Shown here piece by piece: positions 6,535 through 24,337 of a stretch of 44,990 bases of DNA. Both the position numbers and the translations under genes were made by a program. Source of the stretch: Saccharicrinis sp. (GTDB lineage Bacteria > Bacteroidota > Bacteroidia > Bacteroidales > Marinilabiliaceae); the NCBI GenBank assembly GCA_024635555.1, contig JAGXIO010000122.1:1-44990 (forward strand), read 5' to 3'. Positions within the stretch are counted from its first letter, which is position 1, and every line of letters starts with the position of its first letter. A model generated the notes under the pieces. The model did not search any database. It worked only from the letters and a program-made list of their open reading frames with translations, and had not been told where the DNA came from.

Positions 6535-7542
6535 TTATTCAGGAAAGCTCCTATTCACTTCTGCCACAATCTGTTCTGGAGTAATATCTACCAGGCATTT
6601 TTTAATTTCTTTTATTTTGCATTTGGTGTTTCCATGTTTGCTGCATGGCTGGCAGGGTAAACCTAAATTAAATATCTTCATCTTTTCGCCCGTTGGAAAA
6701 CCAAATGCTGTGGGTCCCATGAGTGCACATCCGGCCACGTCAAACAAGTCGGCAGCATGTAAAAATCCAGTGTCGCCACTTATCACGTATTTTGACTGTG
6801 AGGTAACGCAGAAGCTTTCTAATAACGAGGTTTTTCCGGCCAAGTTAATAACCCTATCGGGGGCACTATCAGCAATGTCCTGGCAAAAGTGATCCTGTGG
6901 ACCGGCTAAAATGGTAAAATTAAAGTGGGGGAGAAGGGTAATCAGTTTTTTCCAGTGTGCCACAGGCCACCGTTTCAGCTCCCAGGCAGCCGATGGTACC
7001 AACGTTATGTTTTTGGCCGTTTGATTCTTAAGCAATTGTTCACACTTTTCCTCCGTTTCTGCCGGGAATTCCCAGTTATCCTGAGGTGTATCAAAATTGG
7101 TAATTCCCCATTTTTCGAGTGGTTTGCGGAACGATTCAAAGGCTTTGAATGGATTGGGTAGCAGGTTTATCTGAAAATTAAACAGCAACATCCGTTTTAG
7201 CCTATGCTTACGGCGCGTTATGAGTTTGCTACCGATGCCCAATGGACAAATAATATTTTTAAGTATATTGGAGCGGATGTTGCTATGGGCATCGTAAACA
7301 CGGGTATAGCCTTCTTTTTTTAGGTCGAAGGCCATTTTAAATATCCCTGCCATCCCTTCATCGCGGTCAAACTCGATAAGGCGGTCGATACGTGGATCTA
7401 TTTTTAAGAGAGTTGCCAAATCCTTGCGTACAATCCAATGAACCTCGCAACCCGGGTAATGGTTTTTAAAGCCCGCAGTTACCGACATACACTGAATAAT
7501 GTCGCCAATAGAACTTAGTCTGATAATTAATATCTTTTCCAA
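6535..7542 (-). CDS. GT9-family (heptosyltransferase-like) LPS glycosyltransferase
   Basis: This 335-aa protein has the ADP-heptose:LPS heptosyltransferase layout. It starts MEKILIIRLSSIGDII, the usual N-terminal strand and loop of GT9 enzymes, then VHWIVRKD near residue 35. The C-terminal Rossmann half has LVPSAAWELKRWP near residue 180, the donor-binding VISGDTGFLHAADL near residue 250 and LMGPTAFGFPTG near residue 275. GT9 enzymes transfer heptose or related sugars to the LPS inner core. A C-terminal cluster of cysteines (CQPCSKHGNTKCKIKEIKKC) is common in Bacteroidota GT9 proteins and may bind metal or form disulfides. It is upstream of, and in the same direction as, the GT4-GT90 gene, which fits core-LPS assembly. 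Confidence 0.88.
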   Translation of the reverse strand: MEKILIIRLSSIGDIIQCMSVTAGFKNHYPGCEVHWIVRKDLATLLKIDPRIDRLIEFDRDEGMAGIFKMAFDLKKEGYTRVYDAHSNIRSNILKNIICPLGIGSKLITRRKHRLKRMLLFNFQINLLPNPFKAFESFRKPLEKWGITNFDTPQDNWEFPAETEEKCEQLLKNQTAKNITLVPSAAWELKRWPVAHWKKLITLLPHFNFTILAGPQDHFCQDIADSAPDRVINLAGKTSLLESFCVTSQSKYVISGDTGFLHAADLFDVAGCALMGPTAFGFPTGEKMKIFNLGLPCQPCSKHGNTKCKIKEIKKCLVDITPEQIVAEVNRSFPE

Positions 7543-14344: not shown

Positions 14345-14489
14345 TTTTAAATATTGATTATGGCCACATTTGACCGTGGTATTTTTAACTTGCAGACGTT
14401 TTTCATCATTTTATAAATAAATTTAGTAACCTAATGGTAGGAGTGGCCGTAACAGGGGAGAGGTAAATAATTTATTTAAGAAAAATGTG

Positions 14490-15002
14490 ATGAAAAAAAT
14501 AGTACTATTATTCGTTCTGGTATTACTGATGCCAAAAGTTGGCTTTGCTCAGATAGAAAAGTATAAATCGGTGTTCACCTTAAATTTTATCCGATATATA
14601 GGATGGCCGGAGCAAGCGAAAAAGGGTGATTTTATAATAGGTGTATTAAAAGAAGACAAGATAGTTGAATGGTTAGGCTCACAATCGGATGGTAAAAAAT
14701 TTGGTTATCAGGATGTGGTCATTAAAACTTTCAACTCCGTTGAGGAGGTAAGTAAGTGCCAGGTATTGTATGTGTCTTCGAGCATTAACTTTTCGAGACA
14801 TGCCGAGGCTTTATTGTCGAAAATTGGAAGTAATGCTTTAGTGATAACTGAAACGGAGGGTGCTACCAAATACGGCTCGGTAATTAATTTTGTAGTGCGC
14901 GACGAAGTTTTGAAATTTGAGATTGATGATGCTAACGCACAAAAATTGGGACTTAGCATCAGTTCAAAATTAACCAGTATGACTGCCGCCATCCAAATGT
15001 AA
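14490..15002 (+). CDS. YfiR-like (DUF4154) exported protein
   Basis: This 170-aa protein has a signal peptide (hydrophobic residues about 5-18, then GFAQ) and a YfiR/DUF4154 body: [18 protein letters not shown] near the start, the VLYVSSS strand in the middle, and [12 protein letters not shown] at the end. In Pseudomonas, YfiR is a periplasmic repressor of the diguanylate cyclase YfiN (TpbB). Here no cyclase is adjacent; the next gene is a chemoreceptor with a periplasmic domain, so it may be a periplasmic sensory partner for that receptor (inference). ATG at 14490 is preferred over the GTG just before it at 14487. It is the first gene of the chemosensory operon, 19 bp before mcp. Confidence 0.85.
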
Positions 15003-15021
15003 AACAAATATTTTTAATGAG

Positions 15022-16731
15022 ATGAAATTGAATTTAAGTATAGCGCAAAAGTTGATGGCCGGAATCAGTTTGATTCTATTGGCAATTTTAATTAATGGTA
15101 TTAGCACGTATGTTACGTTAAATCATAGTCGTACGTTAAGTGAGGAAATCACCAAGGTATATAGTCCGTCGCAACAAAATATTCAGTTGTTTAAGGATAT
15201 GGTGCTAAATTCAAAAGCACTTATTAAAAGCTGGGTGTTTATAGACAAGCAGTCGGGCACGGCCGACAAGGTGGCGCTGGAAAATTTACATGCCAATGAT
15301 TATCCTGCACTTGTTCAAAAGCTTGATGCTAATAAAAATAATTGGGATAGTGCCGATCAATTAACTTACAGTACTATTAAGCATAAAGCTGACTCCTTGT
15401 TTGAGATGCAACAAATTGTTATGAGTAACCTTAGCACTTTTGAAGCTTACGATGATGTGATGGTAATTTTTGAAGTAGAGCCTATGGTAAGCGAAGGGGG
15501 TGACATAATGCTATTGAGCAACGAAATTATTGAGGAGTTAACTTTACTTGGCGATAAATTTAGCAAACTTAATTCAGCATCTTTAAATGAAATGGAGAGC
15601 ACCTTTGGATGGTTTGGCATTTTTATTATCCTGATGATTTTGCTATTAGTATTAGTAAGTATATCGGTGGCCTATTGGTTGTTTAATAGCATTATTAAAC
15701 CTCTTAATAAAGCGGTGGTTTTTACTCAAACCATTGGGAGTGGCGATTTAACGGCACATTTGGATGTGGATCAGAATGACGAAATAGGTAAGATGGCAGA
15801 AGCGCTCAAAGCAATGGCTCTTAATATTAAAAAAATAGTTATCTCCATTAAGGATAATGCCAACGACCTAGTTACTAGTGGACAGAACGTTAAGGACAGT
15901 TCGGTACAATTGAGCAAAGGTTCGGCCGATCAAGCAGCTTCTGCCGAGGAGGTATCCACTTCGATAGAGGAGATGGTGGCCAATATCGACCAAAATACTG
16001 ATAACGCGGTACAAACTGAAAAAATAACCGTAGAAACTGCCAAGGATGTAAATGTGGCCGACAAGTTATCTTCACAGGCGGCTGAAGCAATGAAGAGTGT
16101 GGCTTCAAAAATCACCATCATTGGCGACATCGCGTTTCAGACCAACATATTAGCTTTGAATGCAGCAGTTGAGGCTGCCCGCGCTGGTGAGCATGGCAGA
16201 GGTTTTTCTGTTGTAGCCTCTGAAGTGCGCAAGCTGGCCGAGAGAAGCAAAGTGGCCGCCGACGAAATACATAGCCTTGTTAACGGAGGTTTAAAAGTAT
16301 CGCAGGAGGCTGGTGAAAAATCGCGGTTATTGGTTCCGGATATCGAAACTACAACCCAGCTTATTAAAGAAATATCTGCCGCCAGTTTAGAGCAAAAAAC
16401 AGGTGCCGAACAAATTAATATGGCCATGCAGCAGCTCAATCTTATTACGCAAGAAAATGCTTCTTCGTCGGATGAGCTTACACAAAGTGCAGAGCAGCTA
16501 GCCGTATTAGCTGAAAAGCTGAAGGAGTCAGTGAGCTTTTTTGTAATAGGTGACGAGGACGAGATGAAGGCTGAGGTAAAAACCGACAATGAAGTGAAAA
16601 GGAAAGAAAGCACCCAGCAAACCCAACGTGGAAAAGTTCAATCGACGCACATAGAAAAAAATATTTATCCAAAGAACAGCCTTATAAATTTGGAAAGGGA
16701 AATGGATATGGATAATTATGAGAAGTATTAA
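15022..16731 (+). CDS. Methyl-accepting chemotaxis protein
   Basis: This 569-aa transmembrane receptor has a first membrane helix at about residues 11-31, a periplasmic helical domain of about 160 aa resembling the four-helix-bundle sensor, a second helix at about 194-219, a HAMP domain at about 220-273, and a coiled-coil signalling domain. The hairpin tip is near canonical ([20 protein letters not shown] at about 372-391), so it should bind CheA and CheW. The C-terminus ([13 protein letters not shown]) has no NWETF-type pentapeptide, so CheR probably docks on the helices directly. It is the only receptor in the operon and immediately follows the YfiR-like gene, which suggests that they act together. 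Confidence 0.95.
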
Positions 16732-16747
16732 GAATTGGCGGTTTACC

Positions 16748-16791
16748 TTAGCTCTGAGAGATTAGTAAAATCAGTTTACTTCCGGAGCTAA
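16748..16791 (+). promoter_or_regulatory. Stem-loop between mcp and the STAS gene
   Basis: TTAGCTC (16748-16754) pairs with GAGCTAA (16785-16791), and AGTAAA (16764-16769) pairs with TTTACT (16775-16780) inside it. There is no T-run after the hairpin, so it is more likely an mRNA processing or stability element that sets receptor level relative to the downstream genes than a full terminator. Confidence 0.4.
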
Positions 16792-16821
16792 TCTTAAATG
16801 TGTATTAAATAAATTAGTGCT

Positions 16822-17133
16822 ATGAATAAATCTTTTTCAATCGATATAAAGCAGCAGAGTAATGAGCAAGAGATTATTTTCTCGGGCGAATTGATCATTA
16901 ACCATGTAAATGCTATTAAAGAAGAGCTTATGGGGTTAATCGACTATGCAAAACCAATTAACATGCGGTTAATTAACCCAGCCGGTATAGACATTACCTT
17001 TATCCAACTTGTATTGGCTATAAAAAAGGCTTATCACGATAAAGGTATAAACTGTAAATTACAGGGAACAATTAACGAAGAAACATTCAATTTGCTGGCA
17101 AATTCAGGTTTCAAAAATCTATTTAAACTTTAG
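16822..17133 (+). CDS. STAS-domain protein of the chemosensory operon
   Basis: This 103-aa single-domain protein has the STAS (anti-sigma-antagonist-like) pattern: ISFSGEL-like beta strands (here IIFSGELI), a central conserved loop INPAGIDITFIQLVLAIKKA, and a final helix ending NSGFKNLFKL. The residue usually phosphorylated in SpoIIAA-type STAS proteins (Ser in DSxGL) appears replaced by Ile, with a Thr next to it, so phospho-switching is doubtful. STAS genes occur between mcp and cheY in several chemosensory operons, but their role is poorly known. It is 17 bp upstream of cheY. Scaffold or output partner functions are both possible. Confidence 0.75.
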   Translation: MNKSFSIDIKQQSNEQEIIFSGELIINHVNAIKEELMGLIDYAKPINMRLINPAGIDITFIQLVLAIKKAYHDKGINCKLQGTINEETFNLLANSGFKNLFKL

Positions 17134-17150
17134 AATTAATATTACTAATT

Positions 17151-17516
17151 ATGGCTAAAACAGTACTTATTGTCGACGATTCAGAAAGCATTAGAGAAGT
17201 CGTTAACTTTACTTTAGAAAATGAGGGGTATGAGGTATTGGTGGGAGTAGACGGAGAAGATGCGCTTCAGTTTTTAGACGGTCGCAACATTGACATCGTT
17301 ATTACGGATTTGCATATGCCCAATCTTGATGGTTTGGGGTTAATTCGCAAGATACGGGAAATTGACGCTTATAAGCACATTCCTATTTTGTTTTTGACCA
17401 CGGAATCGCAAGCAGCAAAAAAAATGGAGGCAAAACAAGCCGGTGCAACCGGATGGATCATTAAGCCGTTTGTGTCCGCGAAACTTTTAAGTGCTATTTC
17501 ACGGGTTTTACGATGA
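17151..17516 (+). CDS. cheY: CheY-type single-domain response regulator
   Basis: This 121-aa receiver domain has no output domain. The acidic pocket is D9/D10, the phosphoacceptor is D53 (ITDLHMP), the switch threonine is T83 and the conserved lysine is K105 (IIKPF). All are intact, so it should be phosphorylated by CheA. In flagellated bacteria CheY-P binds the motor switch; no motor gene is in this window, so the target here is unknown. Its stop codon overlaps the next gene's ATG (ATGA), giving tight coupling to the stand-alone Hpt protein. Confidence 0.95.
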   Translation: MAKTVLIVDDSESIREVVNFTLENEGYEVLVGVDGEDALQFLDGRNIDIVITDLHMPNLDGLGLIRKIREIDAYKHIPILFLTTESQAAKKMEAKQAGATGWIIKPFVSAKLLSAISRVLR

Positions 17517-17887
17517 TAGAAAAAATAAGGAAAAAATTTATTGCCGACACACTTCAGAGCTTATATGCAATTGAAGCTTGCTTGCGCAAGGATGAGGACG
17601 GAAGCGATACTAAAGTCCTTATTGAAGATATATTTATGGTATTGCATCAAATTAAAGGTACGGCTCCAATGTTGAACATATACAACATTGCGGAGATGGT
17701 ATCGCCCGTTGAACGGGTATATTCGGCCTTGCGCGAAGGAAATTTTTCTTTTTCACAAGAAATAAAATCAAATACCATTCACCTTGTTATGGCCATAATA
17801 GCCAAACTAGCAGTTAACCAACAGGACAATCTCAATTCAGAAGACAAACGCAATACGCAATGTTTTTTTGAATCATTGGTTTTGTAA
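17513..17887 (+). CDS. Stand-alone Hpt-domain protein resembling the CheA P1 domain
   Basis: This 124-aa protein has one histidine phosphotransfer domain. H45 lies in VLHQIKGTAPML, the same residue number as H45 (MHSLKGGGAMFG) in the neighbouring CheA. The two proteins align along the P1 helices, starting MIEKIRKKF against MIDKFRAKF. It therefore looks like a duplicated P1 domain that became a separate protein. It could accept phosphate from CheA's kinase core in trans, or relay it between regulators. The ATG overlaps the cheY stop and cheA starts 11 bp after its stop. It is not a frameshifted piece of CheA, because CheA has its own full P1. Confidence 0.85.
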   Translation: MIEKIRKKFIADTLQSLYAIEACLRKDEDGSDTKVLIEDIFMVLHQIKGTAPMLNIYNIAEMVSPVERVYSALREGNFSFSQEIKSNTIHLVMAIIAKLAVNQQDNLNSEDKRNTQCFFESLVL

Positions 17888-17898
17888 AATGCAGGAAC

Positions 17899-19941
17899 AT
17901 GATTGATAAGTTTAGGGCTAAGTTTGTTGAAGAATCACTCGACAATGTACATGATTTAGAAGAAGCCATGCTGCTTCTGGAGAAAGACCCGACAGACAAA
18001 GAAATAATAGAACGCATATTTAGGGCTATGCACTCCCTTAAAGGTGGTGGAGCCATGTTTGGATTCAACGATCTAAGTAGTTTCACACATCACTTAGAGA
18101 CGATTTACGACTGGGTGCGAAATGGAAAACTTAAGGTTACCGAAGATATAATTACGGAAACATTTAACGCTATCGATCAAATTAAGTATTTGTTAGAAGT
18201 AGGTGATGTAAGCGATGAATCAGAAAAGCGTGAGTTAGCTCAATTAACACAAAGGATTCAAAGCTTTGTGGATATAAGCAAAGAGGATAATGAAGCTAAA
18301 AAGGGTGCAAAAAGCAAAGAGGAAGACTCTCTAGAATCTTTATCAAGCGAGGACTCTAAAACCTATCTTATCCATTTTAAGCCACATGTTAATATCCTGT
18401 TAAACGGAACCAACCCGCTTTATTTATTGGACGATTTGCATGCATTGGGTAATGCCATTGTTTTGTATCACGATGAAAATGTACCTGAATTAAACGAATT
18501 AAACCCCGAGAATTGTTTTGTTTCCTGGGATATTGTGTTGAATACAACCGAGGGTATCAACGAAATACAGGACGTGTTTATTTTTGTGGAAGATGAATGC
18601 GATTTAAATATTACCGAAATATTTAACGGAGATATACTAAGGCATTCCGAATTTATTAAAATAGTTGAAAAGTGTGAATTAGGCCAGGAAAAACTTACGG
18701 CAGAGCTTTTAAAAGGAATATTCTGGGGCGAAGAAGAAAATAAAACCGCGTCGGATAAGAAGAGAGTACTTTTAAAAGAGCACAAGATTTCGAGTATAAG
18801 GGTGGCCTCCACCAAAATTGATGAGCTAGTAAACCTAGTTAGCGAGCTCGTAACCATTCAGGCACAGCTGCATTTGTATGCCGAAACCAATAGGGAGCCT
18901 AAAATGTTGGATTTGTCAGAAAATATTGAGAAGCTTACCCGACAGCTGCGCGATAATGCCTTTGAAATAAGTTTGATACCTCTGCAAAATGATTTGATGC
19001 GTTTTCAACGTCTGGTGCGCGATTTGTCAAAGGAACTGAACAAAGAAATTGATTTTATAATAGAGGGCGGCGACATAGAGCTGGATAAAAATATTATTGA
19101 GCATCTTACTGATCCACTGCTCCACATGATTCGCAATTGTGTAGATCACGGTATTGAAATGCCGGAGGAACGTATTAAAAAAGGTAAAAACCCAAAAGGG
19201 AATGTCATTTTTAAAGCTTATTACGAAGGCTCCAACGTAATTATAAAAATAATTGACGATGGTATGGGCATGGATCCCCAAGTTATTTTAAGCAAAGCTA
19301 TAAAAAAAGGTCTGGTTGAAGAAGGGCATGATTTAAGCAAAAAGGAGATTCTCGACCTTGTGTTTCAAAGTGGATTCACCACCAAAGAAGAGGTGTCGGA
19401 TCTATCGGGTAGAGGCGTGGGGATGGACGTGGTGAATCGCAAGATAGGAGAAATTAGGGGTGAGGTTTCCATAGATTCAGAATTGAATAAAGGCACAACT
19501 GTTACCTTGGTGTTACCCTTAACTTTATCTATTATTGATGGACTATTGGTAAGCGTGGCCGATGGACAATATGTGATTCCTATTTCGGCGATAGAAAAAA
19601 TAATTCCGATCCAGCCTAACGACCGCGAAACCATATTTAATGGTATTATTAAATTGGGCGAAGAGCATTTCCCGGTTATCGATCTCCATAATATATTTAA
19701 CGAGTTACAAAGCCCCGAAAAGCAGCATATTATCCTTGTTAAATTTGAGGATAGACGGTTTGGTTTAATTGTGGATAAGGTTATCGGAGAGTATCAAACT
19801 GTGGTTAAACCTTTGGGTAGGATGATAAAAGATCAGGAAGTTATATCCGGAGCCTCCATCATGGGCGACGGGACTATTTCAATGGTTATTGATACCAATA
19901 GGCTTATTCATTCATATGGAAACCAAAAAATTCACAAATAA
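17899..19941 (+). CDS. cheA: Chemotaxis histidine kinase CheA
   Basis: This 680-aa protein has the full CheA layout: P1 Hpt with H45 (HSLKGGGAMFGF), an acidic linker, a ferredoxin-like P2 region at about 153-245, a P3 dimerisation hairpin from about 297, the P4 ATPase with N box HMIRNCVDHGIE near 405, G1 IIDDGMGMD near 455 and G2 GRGVGMDVV near 504, and a P5 CheW-like domain from about 540 to the end. Every catalytic motif is intact. It phosphorylates CheY and CheB under receptor control at the inner membrane. It lies between the stand-alone Hpt gene and cheW (2-bp gap). Confidence 0.97.
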   Translation: MIDKFRAKFVEESLDNVHDLEEAMLLLEKDPTDKEIIERIFRAMHSLKGGGAMFGFNDLSSFTHHLETIYDWVRNGKLKVTEDIITETFNAIDQIKYLLEVGDVSDESEKRELAQLTQRIQSFVDISKEDNEAKKGAKSKEEDSLESLSSEDSKTYLIHFKPHVNILLNGTNPLYLLDDLHALGNAIVLYHDENVPELNELNPENCFVSWDIVLNTTEGINEIQDVFIFVEDECDLNITEIFNGDILRHSEFIKIVEKCELGQEKLTAELLKGIFWGEEENKTASDKKRVLLKEHKISSIRVASTKIDELVNLVSELVTIQAQLHLYAETNREPKMLDLSENIEKLTRQLRDNAFEISLIPLQNDLMRFQRLVRDLSKELNKEIDFIIEGGDIELDKNIIEHLTDPLLHMIRNCVDHGIEMPEERIKKGKNPKGNVIFKAYYEGSNVIIKIIDDGMGMDPQVILSKAIKKGLVEEGHDLSKKEILDLVFQSGFTTKEEVSDLSGRGVGMDVVNRKIGEIRGEVSIDSELNKGTTVTLVLPLTLSIIDGLLVSVADGQYVIPISAIEKIIPIQPNDRETIFNGIIKLGEEHFPVIDLHNIFNELQSPEKQHIILVKFEDRRFGLIVDKVIGEYQTVVKPLGRMIKDQEVISGASIMGDGTISMVIDTNRLIHSYGNQKIHK

Positions 19942-19943
19942 CT

Positions 19944-20399
19944 ATGGAAGGTGATTTTAAAACATTGATTTCGTTTGGCCTGCAAGGGCAAACCTTTGCC
20001 TTTGATAGCCTAATGGTTCGTAACATATTGCCCTACGAAGGTCAACTTACCAAAGTGCCAAACGCACGTAATTTTATTTTGGGTGTTATCAATTTACACG
20101 GTAATATTTTACCGGTAATCGATATGCGCAAAATAATGGATATAGACCAACAGGAAATAACAAAGGATACCTCTATTATTATTGTGTCGCCCGAGGATAA
20201 AATAGAATCACAATTCGGAATTTTGGTGGATATGGTAAAAGAGGTTTTTGAGGTTAAAACGGAAAGAATAACACCGCCTATCTTCCAAAATAAAATGGGT
20301 CTAATAGAATCATTTCAGGGAGATGTTCAGGAAAATGGCGTGATGATACACCTGATCGATCTGTTACATCTTGTTTCACAAATCGAAAGTAAAAAATAG
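19944..20399 (+). CDS. cheW: CheW coupling protein, first copy
   Basis: This 151-aa protein is a single CheW domain. It starts with a strand pair (LISFGLQGQTFAFDSLMVRNIL), then has VPNARNFILGVINLHGNILPVIDMR, the conserved core of the family, and ends with LIDLLHLVSQ. CheW links receptors to CheA in the signalling array. The start ATG lies 2 bp after the cheA stop. It is followed by a second, more divergent CheW. Confidence 0.93.
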   Translation: MEGDFKTLISFGLQGQTFAFDSLMVRNILPYEGQLTKVPNARNFILGVINLHGNILPVIDMRKIMDIDQQEITKDTSIIIVSPEDKIESQFGILVDMVKEVFEVKTERITPPIFQNKMGLIESFQGDVQENGVMIHLIDLLHLVSQIESKK

Positions 20400-20403
20400 G
20401 GAC

Positions 20404-20889
20404 ATGGAAGATAGTAATAACTCTTATCTGTCGTTTAAAGTAGGTGACGAAATTTTTGCTTTACATGCAAGTAAAGTAAACGAAATACGCGAGTACGAAA
20501 AGCCCCGTAATATGCCCGGTAAACTTACTTTTATGCGAGGCGTGATTGACTACCTTGATGAGGTAATACCAGTTATTGACACGGGCGTTAAATTTGGCAT
20601 GCAACCTGTTAAGCTAACATCACAAACTTGTATCATTATTATTGATGTGGAACGCGCAGATAATGCTTCGTCGTTTAGGGTGGGCATACTTACAGATGAA
20701 GTAACCGATGTGTTTGAAGCGGAGGAGGAAGATTTTAAACTTATAGATGCCGATTACAGTCCGCAATATATAAAGGCAACATGTAGTCGCAAAAATGATT
20801 TTTATCTGATATTGAATTCAGACCATGTGTTCAGTAAAAACGATGTACTGGAATTAAGTCGCATCCTTGAGCAAATAAAAAAACAGTGA
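20404..20889 (+). CDS. CheW coupling protein, second copy
   Basis: This 161-aa CheW-domain protein has YLSFKVGDEIFALHASKVNEI, then RGVIDYLDEVIPVIDTGVKFG and LIIDVE-like strands (here IIIIDVE). I chose ATG at 20404, 4 bp after the preceding stop; the longer reading from a TTG at 20371 would overlap the first cheW and adds residues unlike CheW. The two CheW proteins differ throughout, so they are not a recent duplication. They could couple different receptor sets or form alternating CheW rings in the array. Its stop overlaps the GTG of cheR. Confidence 0.9.
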   Translation: MEDSNNSYLSFKVGDEIFALHASKVNEIREYEKPRNMPGKLTFMRGVIDYLDEVIPVIDTGVKFGMQPVKLTSQTCIIIIDVERADNASSFRVGILTDEVTDVFEAEEEDFKLIDADYSPQYIKATCSRKNDFYLILNSDHVFSKNDVLELSRILEQIKKQ

Positions 20890-21758
20890 AAGCAAACAGT
20901 AACATAGATGTCAATGGATTGGATTGTTTTAAGGCTCAACTAACCGAAAAGGATTTTGAGGCCTTCAGCAAATTTATATATGGCGAATTTGGAATTAAAA
21001 TGCCACCTGTTAAAAGGATTATGCTGCAAGGTCGCTTGTTAAAGAGGATACGTGAACTCAATATGAGCTCGTATAGCGAGTATAAAGATTATTTGTTTAG
21101 TAAGGAGGGACATCAGGAAGAAATATTTAACTTTTTAAATGTTGTTACCACAAATAAAACAGATTTTTATAGAGAGCCTGTTCATTTCGACTTTTTGAAA
21201 AGCCATGTTTTGCCAAAGTTCACCGAAAAAGCAACACGTGAACCTTTTAACATATGGAGTGCAGGTTGTTCTAGTGGAGAGGAGCTTTATACCATTGCTA
21301 TTACCCTGAGTGAGTACAAGCGGGAGCAGCCTTCCTTTAGTTTTAAAATGCTGGGAACCGACATATCACATAACGTACTGGATAAGGCAGCCAAAGGAGT
21401 TTATGCCATAAATAAGGTTGACATTGTGCCCTTGGAGCTTAAAAAAAGATACTTATTAAAGAGTAAGGACAAAGAGAACCAAACAGTTAAAATAATACCA
21501 GAGTTAAAAAATAATCTGAACTTAAAGTATTTAAACTTGATGGACACCACTTATTCAAATATAAGCGAAAAGTTTGATGTGGTGTTTTGTCGAAATGTTT
21601 TAATTTATTTTGATAGATTTACCCAAGAAAGTGTTATAAATAAATTGAGCACCTATTTAAAACCAGGCGGTTATTTTTTTATAGGCCATTCCGAATCATT
21701 GACTGGGATGGACGTTTCATTAGAACATATTAAGCCAACTATTTTCAGAAAATTATAA
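20886..21758 (+). CDS. cheR: Chemoreceptor methyltransferase CheR
   Basis: This 290-aa protein has the N-terminal helical CheR domain (FSKFIYGEFGIKMPPVKRIML), then a SAM-binding Rossmann domain with WSAGCSSGEELYTIAI near residue 124 and FDVVFCRNVLIYFD near 230, and ends SLEHIKPTIFRKL. It methylates glutamates on the MCP, using S-adenosylmethionine, for adaptation. The start is GTG at 20886, whose TG is shared with the TGA of the second cheW; no better in-frame ATG follows before the conserved region. It has no TPR extension. Confidence 0.95.
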   Translation: MKANSNIDVNGLDCFKAQLTEKDFEAFSKFIYGEFGIKMPPVKRIMLQGRLLKRIRELNMSSYSEYKDYLFSKEGHQEEIFNFLNVVTTNKTDFYREPVHFDFLKSHVLPKFTEKATREPFNIWSAGCSSGEELYTIAITLSEYKREQPSFSFKMLGTDISHNVLDKAAKGVYAINKVDIVPLELKKRYLLKSKDKENQTVKIIPELKNNLNLKYLNLMDTTYSNISEKFDVVFCRNVLIYFDRFTQESVINKLSTYLKPGGYFFIGHSESLTGMDVSLEHIKPTIFRKL

Positions 21759-21776
21759 AAGTTCAAAACTATAACA

Positions 21777-22679
21777 ATGAATAATTTAACAGACAGACAG
21801 TTGTTGAAGGAGCTAAAAGAGCGACTTGAATACGGAAAAAAGAACGATAAGGAGATCAGGGAGCTGACCGTGGAATTGCAAAACGTTTCAAAAAAACTGA
21901 AGGATTCGGAGGCACTCAAAAGTCACTTTATATCCAACATTTCAAACGAAATTGTAAATCCATTTACTTCAATCTTGGGTTTGTCTAAAGTTATCCTGTC
22001 GGTTGAAAAGCACGATTGGAAAAAAGTGGTTTCAATGGTGGCATTGATTCACTCCGAGGCTTTTAACCTCGATTTTCAGCTGAAAAATATTTTTGTAGCG
22101 GCAAAAATTGAGGCAGGCGAAATTGCTCCCAACGTGGCCAAAGTAAACATTAGAACCTTGCTGCAAAACGTAATGGATTCATTTAATATTATTTCGCGCA
22201 AGATGGGTATCACATTCGATGTCCAGTTTAATATAGAACACGGTTTTGGTAAAAACTTTTATTTTAAAACCGATTCGGAAAAACTAAAACTCATATTAAG
22301 TAACCTAATAAATAATGCTTTAAAATACAGTTATAAAGACAGTAAAGTTATTTTATCGGTGTGGTTAGACGATGAAGATGTGTTAAAGTTATCGGTACAG
22401 GATTTTGGTACCGGTATATCCGAAAAAAATCAGCAAACCATATTTCAACGCTTTAAAAGATTAGACACGGGCATCAATTCTATTAATAGAGGGCACGGTT
22501 TAGGTTTGTCTATTACAAAAGCATTGTTAGATGTAATAAGTGGACAGATTGAAATATCAAGTGTTAAGGGTGAAGGTTCTACTTTTACCATCAGTGTGCC
22601 CGAATCCAAAAACATTGTGGATGGATTTAGTGGAGAGGGTAACGATATTTTCTTTGATGAGGAGGATGAGATTTTTTAA
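21777..22679 (+). CDS. Histidine-kinase-like protein with Asn in place of the phosphoacceptor His
   Basis: This 300-aa soluble protein has an N-terminal coiled coil (about residues 8-48), a DHp-like helix pair, and an intact HATPase domain: N box NLINNALKYSY near residue 178, G1 DFGTGISE near 211 and G2 GHGLGLSIT near 240. At the site where kinases have HE, the sequence is ISNEIVNPF, with codon AAC (Asn57). The remaining H-box pattern is otherwise normal, so the loss is specific. It may be unable to autophosphorylate in the usual way, or may act as a phosphatase or scaffold. It sits between cheR and cheD, with no response regulator or sensor domain attached. Confidence 0.85.
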   Translation: MNNLTDRQLLKELKERLEYGKKNDKEIRELTVELQNVSKKLKDSEALKSHFISNISNEIVNPFTSILGLSKVILSVEKHDWKKVVSMVALIHSEAFNLDFQLKNIFVAAKIEAGEIAPNVAKVNIRTLLQNVMDSFNIISRKMGITFDVQFNIEHGFGKNFYFKTDSEKLKLILSNLINNALKYSYKDSKVILSVWLDDEDVLKLSVQDFGTGISEKNQQTIFQRFKRLDTGINSINRGHGLGLSITKALLDVISGQIEISSVKGEGSTFTISVPESKNIVDGFSGEGNDIFFDEEDEIF

Positions 22680-22689
22680 GGATAAATAA

Positions 22690-23160
22690 ATGAACTATTA
22701 TTTACAACATTTTCTATATCCTTCCTCACTATTTGTAAGCAAGGAGCCTTACCTTGTGAAAACCATACTGGGTTCGTGCGTGGCGGTATGCATGTGGGAC
22801 TCGAAATTAAAAATTGGAGGCATCAATCATTTTATGCTGCCAAACTGGAACGGTAACGACTTGGCATCGCCAAAATATGGTAACATTGCCATTGAGAAAC
22901 TGATCGATAAAATGCTTTTTCTGGGATCGAAACACGAAGACCTGCAGGCAAAATTATTTGGCGGTGGCGAAATGATGGATAGCGGTGCTGGCAGAATCAT
23001 GATTGGGGAAAGAAATATCAGAGTAGCCCGTTTAATGCTAGAAGAACGTAAAATACCGGTAATGGCATCAAGCACAGGAGGTAAGCGAGGAAGGAAAATT
23101 ATATTTTTTACGGACACAGGTGAGGTAAGGCATAAGTTATTAGATAAAACAACTAGATAA
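22690..23160 (+). CDS. cheD: Chemoreceptor glutamine deamidase CheD
   Basis: This 156-aa protein has the CheD active site: T25 and C30 in KTILGSCVAV, and H47 in GGINHFMLP, followed by AKLFGGGEMM. It deamidates specific glutamines on chemoreceptors to glutamates, making them available for CheR methylation. In Bacillus it also cooperates with CheC; no cheC is present here. It lies 10 bp after the kinase-like gene and 67 bp before cheB. Confidence 0.95.
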   Translation: MNYYLQHFLYPSSLFVSKEPYLVKTILGSCVAVCMWDSKLKIGGINHFMLPNWNGNDLASPKYGNIAIEKLIDKMLFLGSKHEDLQAKLFGGGEMMDSGAGRIMIGERNIRVARLMLEERKIPVMASSTGGKRGRKIIFFTDTGEVRHKLLDKTTR

Positions 23161-23227
23161 AACGACTATTTGGTCTTTTTATATGCAGATTAAACACCAC
23201 CGATAGAGAATAAATATTGATGATGAG

Positions 23228-24337
23228 ATGAAAAAGATCCAGGTATTGGTTGTCGATGATTCGGCAGTGGTGAGGCAAAGTTTAACTTCTATTTTAGAGT
23301 CGGATCCTGAAATTTCAGTGATGGGTACCGCTGCAGATCCTATAATAGCAGTAAAAAAAATTTTGAAGGAGGTGCCGGATGTAATCACATTGGATATTGA
23401 AATGCCGCGTATGGACGGATTAACGTTTTTGCGCAAAATCATGTCACAATATCCTATTCCAGTGGTTATTATTTCGTCGCTCACCACCGAAGGAACCGAA
23501 GTGGCTATGAAAGCACTTGAATATGGAGCTTCCGAAATAATTGGTAAACCAGCTATGAATGCCGCTAAGTTTATCAACGAATCCAAGATACTTATTTGCG
23601 ATGCTGTAAAAGCTGCTGCCCAATCCAAGCTCTCACGGAAAAAAAATAGTGGCCAAAGTGCGGGTAGCTCTGCCCAGGAGTTACCAGTTCCAAAGGTAAA
23701 TGCGCCCTTGCAGGTACAGCCAAAATACTCTGCTGATGTAATTCTAAAAAAGGCTTCAGCAGCCGATCGCATTAGTGTCACTGAAAAAATAATAGTGTTA
23801 GGTGCGTCAACAGGAGGTACGGAAGCCATTAGGCATTTTTTGAAAAATCTGCCCGATAAAATGCCAGGTATTGCTATTGTACAGCATATGCCCGAAGGTT
23901 TTACCAAATCCTTTGCCAACAGCCTCAATAATATTTGCGAGTTGGAAGTTAAAGAAGCCGAAAATGGCGACAAACTTTATCAAGGAAGGGTGTTAATTGC
24001 CCCGGGAAATTACCATATGCTACTTAAAAGGGTAGGTAAGGAATACTCTGTGGAGGTAAAGGAAGGGCCTTTGGTTAACAGGCATCGTCCTTCGGTGGAT
24101 GTGCTTTTTCGGAGTGCAGCGCGCTACGCGGGCAATAACGCTACGGGCATACTGCTCACCGGAATGGGAAACGATGGAGCTAAAGGTTTGCTGGAGTTAA
24201 AAGAGGTAGGCGCACATACCATCGCTCAGGACGAGGCCAGTTCGGTAGTGTATGGAATGCCCAAGGAAGCCGCCAAGTTAGGAGCAGCTGATAAAATATT
24301 ACCGCTGGACCAAATAGCACCCTATCTACTAAAGTAA
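23228..24337 (+). CDS. cheB: Chemotaxis response regulator methylesterase CheB
   Basis: This 369-aa protein has a receiver domain (D10/D11, phosphoacceptor D56 in [10 protein letters not shown]) and a C-terminal methylesterase with the Ser in [10 protein letters not shown], the His in VQHMPEGF and the Asp in [12 protein letters not shown], the catalytic triad. When phosphorylated by CheA it removes methyl groups from receptors. The linker (about residues 137-182) is Ala/Ser/Gln-rich and longer than in E. coli. It closes the operon; 163 bp of noncoding sequence without a clear terminator separates it from the convergent glycosyltransferase gene. Confidence 0.97.

Follow-up and report, generated by a model that had tools for sequence, protein, structure and literature searches.

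A histidine kinase-like protein with asparagine in place of the phospho-accepting histidine is a conserved component of Bacteroidales chemosensory operons

INTRODUCTION

Chemotaxis needs a means of ending the signal carried by phosphorylated CheY (CheY~P); the established phosphatases fall into three unrelated families (CheZ, CheC/CheX/FliY types). CheC partners CheD, and CheZ binds CheY via a C-terminal peptide. Here, we analyzed a 44,990-nucleotide stretch of DNA from Saccharicrinis sp. (contig JAGXIO010000122.1; hereafter the window), in which a chemotaxis gene run encodes a HisKA-like protein with asparagine at the position of the phospho-accepting histidine. We named this window protein, with its Asn-for-His H box, NHK. 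No description of a His-less kinase encoded in the che operons of Bacteroidales was found in the open-access literature.

In HisKA proteins, kinase activity requires the Glu that follows the His, and phosphatase activity requires the Thr or Asn at position +4; in CrdS, HK853, HK1190 and HK4262, the +4 residue is required for phosphatase but not kinase activity (PMC3510030). The half-life of CrdA~P was 53.5 min without enzyme, 0.7 min with wild-type CrdS, 2.6 min with H371A and 47.6 min with N375A (PMC3510030). The same paper names CheX, CheZ and CheC as phosphatases and reports that CheX uses an E-x-x-N motif (PMC3510030). Kinase-like proteins with incomplete machinery are also described: RdmS, an archaeal kinase without an H box, binds and hydrolyzes ATP and has no autokinase activity (PMC11784639); ChrS, a truncated kinase, promotes phosphotransfer from a paralogue (PMC9491836). 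DivL of Caulobacter reads DivK~P and controls CckA.

Our data indicate that NHK is a pseudo-histidine kinase at the operon position usual for a chemotaxis phosphatase, and that it most likely turns the chemotaxis signal off, not on. We propose, at about even odds (a probability of roughly 0.5), that it may be a kinase-dead phosphatase for CheY~P, located beside CheD in the place that CheC usually takes.

RESULTS

NHK retains a predicted kinase fold and the ATP boxes without the phospho-accepting histidine

NHK and its key positions are located in the window as follows.

21777-22679, + strand: NHK, a HisKA-like DHp plus HATPase_c protein of 300 aa with Asn57 in place of the phospho-His
21945-21947, + strand: codon of Asn57, the position of the phospho-accepting His; invariant (77/77 rows)
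21957-21959, + strand: codon of Asn61, the +4 residue needed for HisKA phosphatase activity; invariant (77/77 rows)
22605-22676, + strand: conserved acidic, aromatic C-terminal tail, residues 277-300

The open reading frame (ORF) runs from ATG to stop over exactly 21777-22679 and encodes 300 amino acids (aa); on the minus strand, the search for an open frame across the same interval met many stops. The H box reads SNEIVNP, in the context KSHFISNIS-N57-E58-I-V-N61-P62. Alignment with the PDB chains of GacS and HK853 places Asn57 at the phospho-His and Asn61 at the +4 Thr, confirming a preliminary description of this DNA that had placed Asn57 at the catalytic histidine. That description had also called the ATP boxes intact, and the box residues are indeed all present: N (N176, N180), G1 (D209-x-G211-x-G213) and G2 (G239-x-G241-L-G243-L). 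We built an alignment of 77 non-redundant rows, comprising 76 sequences at <88% identity and the window protein, with identity down to 35%. N176, N180, G211, G239, G241, G243 and L244 are invariant in it, and D209 and G213 are kept in 72/77 and 71/77 rows, respectively.

In Pfam, NHK scored 84 bits for HATPase_c (PF02518), a family matched by all 77 alignment members, and 19.3 bits for HisKA (PF00512), below the cut-off of 26.9; PF00512 was matched by 71/77 members at E up to 1. No Pfam match to a sensor domain, PAS included, was found in the 300 aa, where one long helix precedes the H box, nor did the window protein match the CheC, CheX or CheZ profiles. Among the best 25 NCBIfam models listed, none was above its cut-off.

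A single-chain AlphaFold2 model of NHK (predicted local distance difference test score, pLDDT, 78.5; predicted template modeling score, pTM, 0.70) shows a long first helix, a DHp-like two-helix hairpin and a HATPase_c domain. The pLDDT falls below 50 at the lid (225-240) and in the tail (287-300), the latter being predicted as disordered. The top Foldseek match of the model was DivL (4q20; E 4e-20), slightly ahead of HK853-RR468 complexes, and DivL 4q20 was also among the sequence matches. Residues 283-300 hold a conserved pattern with the consensus GFSxDGNExFF...EIF, and Phe is the last residue in 67/77 rows. By analogy with the C-terminal CheY-binding peptide of CheZ, we speculate that this tail might be a docking peptide.

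Similar to HisKA sensor kinases of the HK853, CrdS and EnvZ type, NHK combines a DHp-like hairpin with a catalytic and ATP-binding (CA) domain, carries the N, G1 and G2 boxes, the +1 Glu and a Thr/Asn at +4, and has clear PDB matches in sequence and fold. Unlike them, it lacks a sensor domain, has the phospho-His replaced by Asn in all orthologues read, scores below the HisKA threshold and lies in a che operon. DivL resembles NHK in its HisKA-type fold and in a replacement of the phospho-His that is conserved in orthologues, whereas it differs in having Tyr (Ala in one species) rather than Asn, in its PAS domains, in its cell-cycle role and in its phylum and gene context.

Asn57 is conserved in every orthologue read

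Asn57 is present in all 77 alignment rows, as are N61 and P62, and Glu58 is present in 76, the exception being L128 with Gln (RNQIINP). The mean column identity is 54%, so Asn57, Glu58 and Asn61 are kept more strictly than most positions of the protein. Locus L144, which was too short for the alignment, also has Asn. At position 57 the codon is AAC in 39 rows and AAT in 38. The preliminary description had suggested an alignment of homologues and had named His-bearing homologues in the same operon as the refuting case; we looked for these and found none, as all 108 loci with long flanks carry Asn57. Across partly overlapping sets, Asn was found in every orthologue read (L001, L009-L080, L082-L146).

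Orthologues were recognized in 40 of 61 relatives (E up to 1e-45), in 43 of 44 loci from a GTDB contig scan (the remaining locus, L081, encodes an unrelated kinase from Bacilli) and in 67 of the 295 genomes sampled from the order (E up to 1e-38; eight candidates scored per genome in most genomes). A class-level profile search added two lineages of other orders, G906 and G951, both with Asn57; a further match, G395, was rejected as an ordinary His kinase. At the 1e-38 level, a phylum search of 395 genomes returned the window's own protein alone, with a single sequence as the query and five candidates scored per genome, a design that is weak for distant members. The close matches come from Saccharicrinis, Labilibacter, Plebeiobacterium and their kin, placing the genome with the Marinilabiliaceae.

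As a control, the window's own genome yielded 69 kinase matches, of which 60 cover the H box and show 59 His and one Asn, that of NHK; the other nine are partial and lie outside the H box. The +4 residue in the 60 is Thr in 47 and Asn in 5, NHK counted. In a tree of 172 sequences, 79 NHK proteins and a frameshifted fragment from genome G215 formed one clade (support 1.0), and all 92 ordinary kinases with the H-box column have His. A His-bearing NHK orthologue was also sought in 14 CheA genomes without a strong NHK match; the profile matches were rejected as ordinary SHE-type kinases, except in G215. In that genome (contig C136, locus L214, ~6662-7526), the NHK gene is broken into two frames, each part of which gives a match, and Asn stands in the H box, reflecting either an assembly error or a decaying gene.

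This frameshifted orthologue is what an origin of Asn57 in sequencing error, strain-specific mutation or gene decay has in its favor. Against such an origin stand the Asn in 108/108 loci, the intact reading frames and the conserved ATP boxes, and since Asn57 occurs in every orthologue read and is encoded by both Asn codons, we rejected this explanation, the chance of which is negligible. In this respect, the preliminary description was right: the loss of the phospho-acceptor is real, old and under selection.

NHK has a fixed place in a chemotaxis gene run

The genes around NHK in the window are as follows.

14487-15002, + strand: YfiR/HmsC-like protein (DUF4154), head of the gene run
15022-16731, + strand: methyl-accepting chemotaxis protein (MCP) chemoreceptor (HAMP + MCPsignal)
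16822-17133, + strand: STAS-like protein, just below the Pfam cut-off
17151-17516, + strand: CheY, a single receiver domain that contains Asp53, Thr83 and Lys105; putative NHK partner
17513-17887, + strand: stand-alone Hpt-like protein with His45, just below the Pfam cut-off
17899-19941, + strand: CheA with Hpt (His45), dimerization, HATPase and CheW domains
19944-20399, + strand: CheW, copy 1
20413-20889, + strand: CheW, copy 2
20886-21758, + strand: CheR, directly upstream of NHK
22690-23160, + strand: CheD, directly downstream of NHK
23228-24337, + strand: CheB (receiver + methylesterase)

The whole run (14487-24337), NHK included, lies on the + strand, and its spacing and conserved order suggest one operon. 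In the 108 loci, the upstream neighbor of NHK is CheR in 95, a CheY-like ORF in 6, a contig edge in 6 and no recognized gene in 1; the downstream neighbor is CheD in 104, a contig edge in 3 and no recognized gene in 1. Where a CheY-like ORF lies between cheR and nhk (L110, L111, L118, L127, L129, L148), cheR adjoins that ORF, which exceeds 500 codons in L127, L129 and L148. The order cheA-cheW-cheR-nhk-cheD-cheB was also found in G906 and G951.

The CheA dimerization domain was detected in 81 of the 295 genomes of the order sample. NHK was present in 67 of these 81 and in none of the 214 genomes without CheA (Fisher p ~8e-53, kinship ignored). CheD was found in all 66 genomes with NHK that were tested and in G215, and 4 of the 13 NHK-less CheA genomes have it too. 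These data confirm NHK as an old and conserved part, previously without a name, of the chemosensory operons of Bacteroidales. No FliM was found in any of 40 genomes searched, 35 of them with NHK, so CheY there does not act on a flagellar switch; the output of NHK-type systems is likely gliding or other surface behavior.

The fixed operon position, together with the conserved acidic, aromatic, predicted disordered tail ending in Phe, would suit a structural scaffold or array component, in which the kinase fold serves binding alone, the tail docks and the nucleotide is structural. We regard this role as improbable, as it leaves the stricter conservation of Asn57, Glu58 and Asn61 unexplained.

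In the stand-alone Hpt-like protein, the His is at position 45, the same number as in CheA. A stand-alone Hpt was recognized mainly in Marinilabiliaceae loci and rarely elsewhere, although weak detection of so short a gene is possible. This distribution bears on two proposals. The preliminary description had listed a phosphatase for the Hpt among the roles of NHK, and this option is without support because NHK is spread far more widely than the Hpt. The same mismatch speaks against a kinase acting in trans, in which the CA domain of NHK phosphorylates the His of the stand-alone Hpt or of CheA P1, like split CheA kinases without their own P1. The conserved ATP boxes and Glu58 are in line with such a kinase, and both Hpt and CheA P1 bear His45; however, CheA has a full kinase core of its own, and that model assigns no obvious function to a HisKA DHp whose +4 Asn is invariant. 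We consider it, too, a poor prospect.

Several further observations concern the gene run and the genome. The MCP ends in NYEKY, which resembles the pentapeptide of NWETF type on which CheR and CheB dock. In the window, as in most Marinilabiliaceae loci, the first gene of the che run is YfiR/HmsC-like (DUF4154), which, given the role of YfiR, hints at a link to cyclic di-GMP control. After cheB (24338 onward) the window continues with a minus-strand glycosyltransferase-like gene, unlike most Marinilabiliaceae loci (L039-L080), where extra CheR- and CheB-like ORFs follow. The window's genome (G000) also contains a second CheD outside any che cluster (contig C140, L275, ~1133-1693) and, on a different contig (C183), a further CheA-type fragment.

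Other CheY phosphatases in CheA genomes

The preliminary description had stated that the operon lacks CheC, CheX and CheZ. This was upheld for the ten operon proteins scanned and extends, at family thresholds, to the window's whole genome. We then covered 80 of the 81 CheA genomes (G317 was left out), namely 66 with NHK, G215 with the frameshifted NHK and 13 without NHK. CheC was found in 2 and CheX in 3 of the 80, and the CheZ profile in none. G196 and G210, both without NHK, have CheC and CheX; G070, with NHK, has CheX, so neither CheC nor CheX was found in 65 of the 66 NHK genomes searched. The CheX of G070 is encoded away from NHK, in a second cluster that includes a large CheA of its own (L217). 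In G210 (contig C34, L215), two CheX-like places, one also a weak CheC match, have several ordinary hybrid kinases nearby.

Operons of this type that lack NHK between cheR and cheD were seen in two genomes, G196 (L272) and G308 (L271). The G196 genome has a stand-alone CheX with the E-x-x-N motif, which fits a mutual exclusion of NHK and CheC/CheX, and G308 does not fit; the pattern is suggestive only.

DISCUSSION

A putative mechanism for CheY~P dephosphorylation

Overall, we provide a putative mechanism for NHK. NHK, itself soluble and without a sensor, would descend from a HisKA kinase that lost its phospho-accepting His once, before the sampled lineages diverged, and would then have been retained as a fixed part of the operon type cheY-cheA-cheW-cheR-nhk-cheD-cheB. 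NHK cannot autophosphorylate on the usual residue; presumably as a dimer, it would bind phosphorylated CheY through its DHp hairpin, much as kinases engage their regulators. Together with Glu58, in a CheX-like E-x-x-N arrangement, the Asn61 amide would position the water that hydrolyzes CheY~P, and bound nucleotide may lock the CA domain in a conformation suited to phosphatase activity or gate it. NHK would thereby take over the task of CheC, CheX or CheZ, and because nhk adjoins cheD, CheD may regulate NHK as it regulates CheC.

We favor a CheY~P phosphatase because NHK lost the residue essential to a kinase and kept the residue essential to a phosphatase, the +4 position, as Asn, with the spacing E58-x-x-N61 that it shares with CheX. 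The fold of CheC, CheX and CheZ is unrelated to that of NHK. CrdS H371A, which has no phospho-His, is still an effective phosphatase (PMC3510030). Additionally, the close PDB neighbors of the model include HK853-RR468 complexes. The co-occurrence with CheA, CheD in all 66 NHK genomes tested, the failure to find CheC or CheX in 65 of 66 NHK genomes and the CheX in the genome of G196, whose operon is without NHK, also count in favor of this role. Among the roles named in the preliminary description, a CheY~P phosphatase thus appears best supported, by Asn61 and by the CheC-like place beside CheD. A kinase protein with chemotaxis phosphatase activity would have a parallel in CheA3, in which that activity reportedly resides in a CheA protein that itself has a phosphorylated Hpt domain, whereas NHK is a separate, His-less HisKA protein. 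CheA3 of Rhodobacter sphaeroides is described as a chemotaxis kinase-phosphatase (PMC2924250).

Several observations weigh against a phosphatase. PleC without its His lost both activities (PMC3510030), and DivL, the top Foldseek match of NHK, keeps the histidine kinase boxes yet has no phosphatase activity (PMC4211667), so motifs do not prove activity. The kinase residue Glu58 is conserved as well (76/77), which the single-residue HisKA mechanism does not explain; it could be explained by a CheX-like pair or by involvement in DHp-CA docking. In the genomes, the CheX gene of G196 lies outside its che operon, and G308 lost NHK between cheR and cheD with no CheC, CheX or CheZ found in its genome. 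Moreover, 11 of the 13 CheA genomes without NHK also lack CheC, CheX and CheZ, so this absence is not peculiar to NHK genomes. Covariation of the NHK and CheY trees gives no help either. A mirror-tree signal over 45 loci, in which NHK correlated most strongly with CheY (r 0.89, partial 0.52), was dropped as evidence because it vanished once the Marinilabiliaceae were analyzed apart: in 32 loci outside this family, the partial value for CheY was 0.22, below those for CheA, CheR and CheD, and in 13 Marinilabiliaceae loci the relation was inverse (r 0.44).

The serious rival is a DivL-like reader or scaffold, in which NHK binds CheY~P via its DHp without dephosphorylating it and informs CheA, CheD or CheR/CheB. 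The precedent is close, as DivL has Tyr for His and neither kinase nor phosphatase activity and binds DivK~P (PMC4211667); DivL 4q20 is the best structural match and a sequence match of NHK, and a place between the adaptation genes cheR and cheD-cheB would suit a reader. However, NHK is without the PAS domains that govern phospho-specific binding in DivL (PMC4211667), and DivL binds ATP weakly, whereas the ATP boxes of NHK are invariant or nearly so. The failure to find CheC and CheX in 65 of 66 NHK genomes also tells against a reader. We consider this role possible and clearly less probable than a CheY~P phosphatase.

In its boldest form, the phosphatase proposal would make NHK a fourth, independently evolved kind of CheY~P phosphatase, derived from an entire histidine kinase through loss of its phospho-acceptor. 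Asn61 and Glu58 would be catalytic, ATP/ADP gating would let the signal lifetime track the energy state, CheD would control NHK as it does CheC, and NHK would be the standard off-switch of flagellum-independent chemosensory systems in Bacteroidales and some neighboring orders. We regard this full version as doubtful, though it has better prospects than a trans-acting kinase or a scaffold.

Implications

A whole branch of chemosensory systems carries a conserved kinase stripped of its one essential residue. If NHK is a phosphatase, it would be a histidine kinase that naturally acts as a phosphatase alone, and the much-debated separation of kinase from phosphatase chemistry in HisKA enzymes could be tested directly. 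If it is instead a reader of phospho-CheY, it would be a DivL-like pseudokinase outside the alphaproteobacteria.
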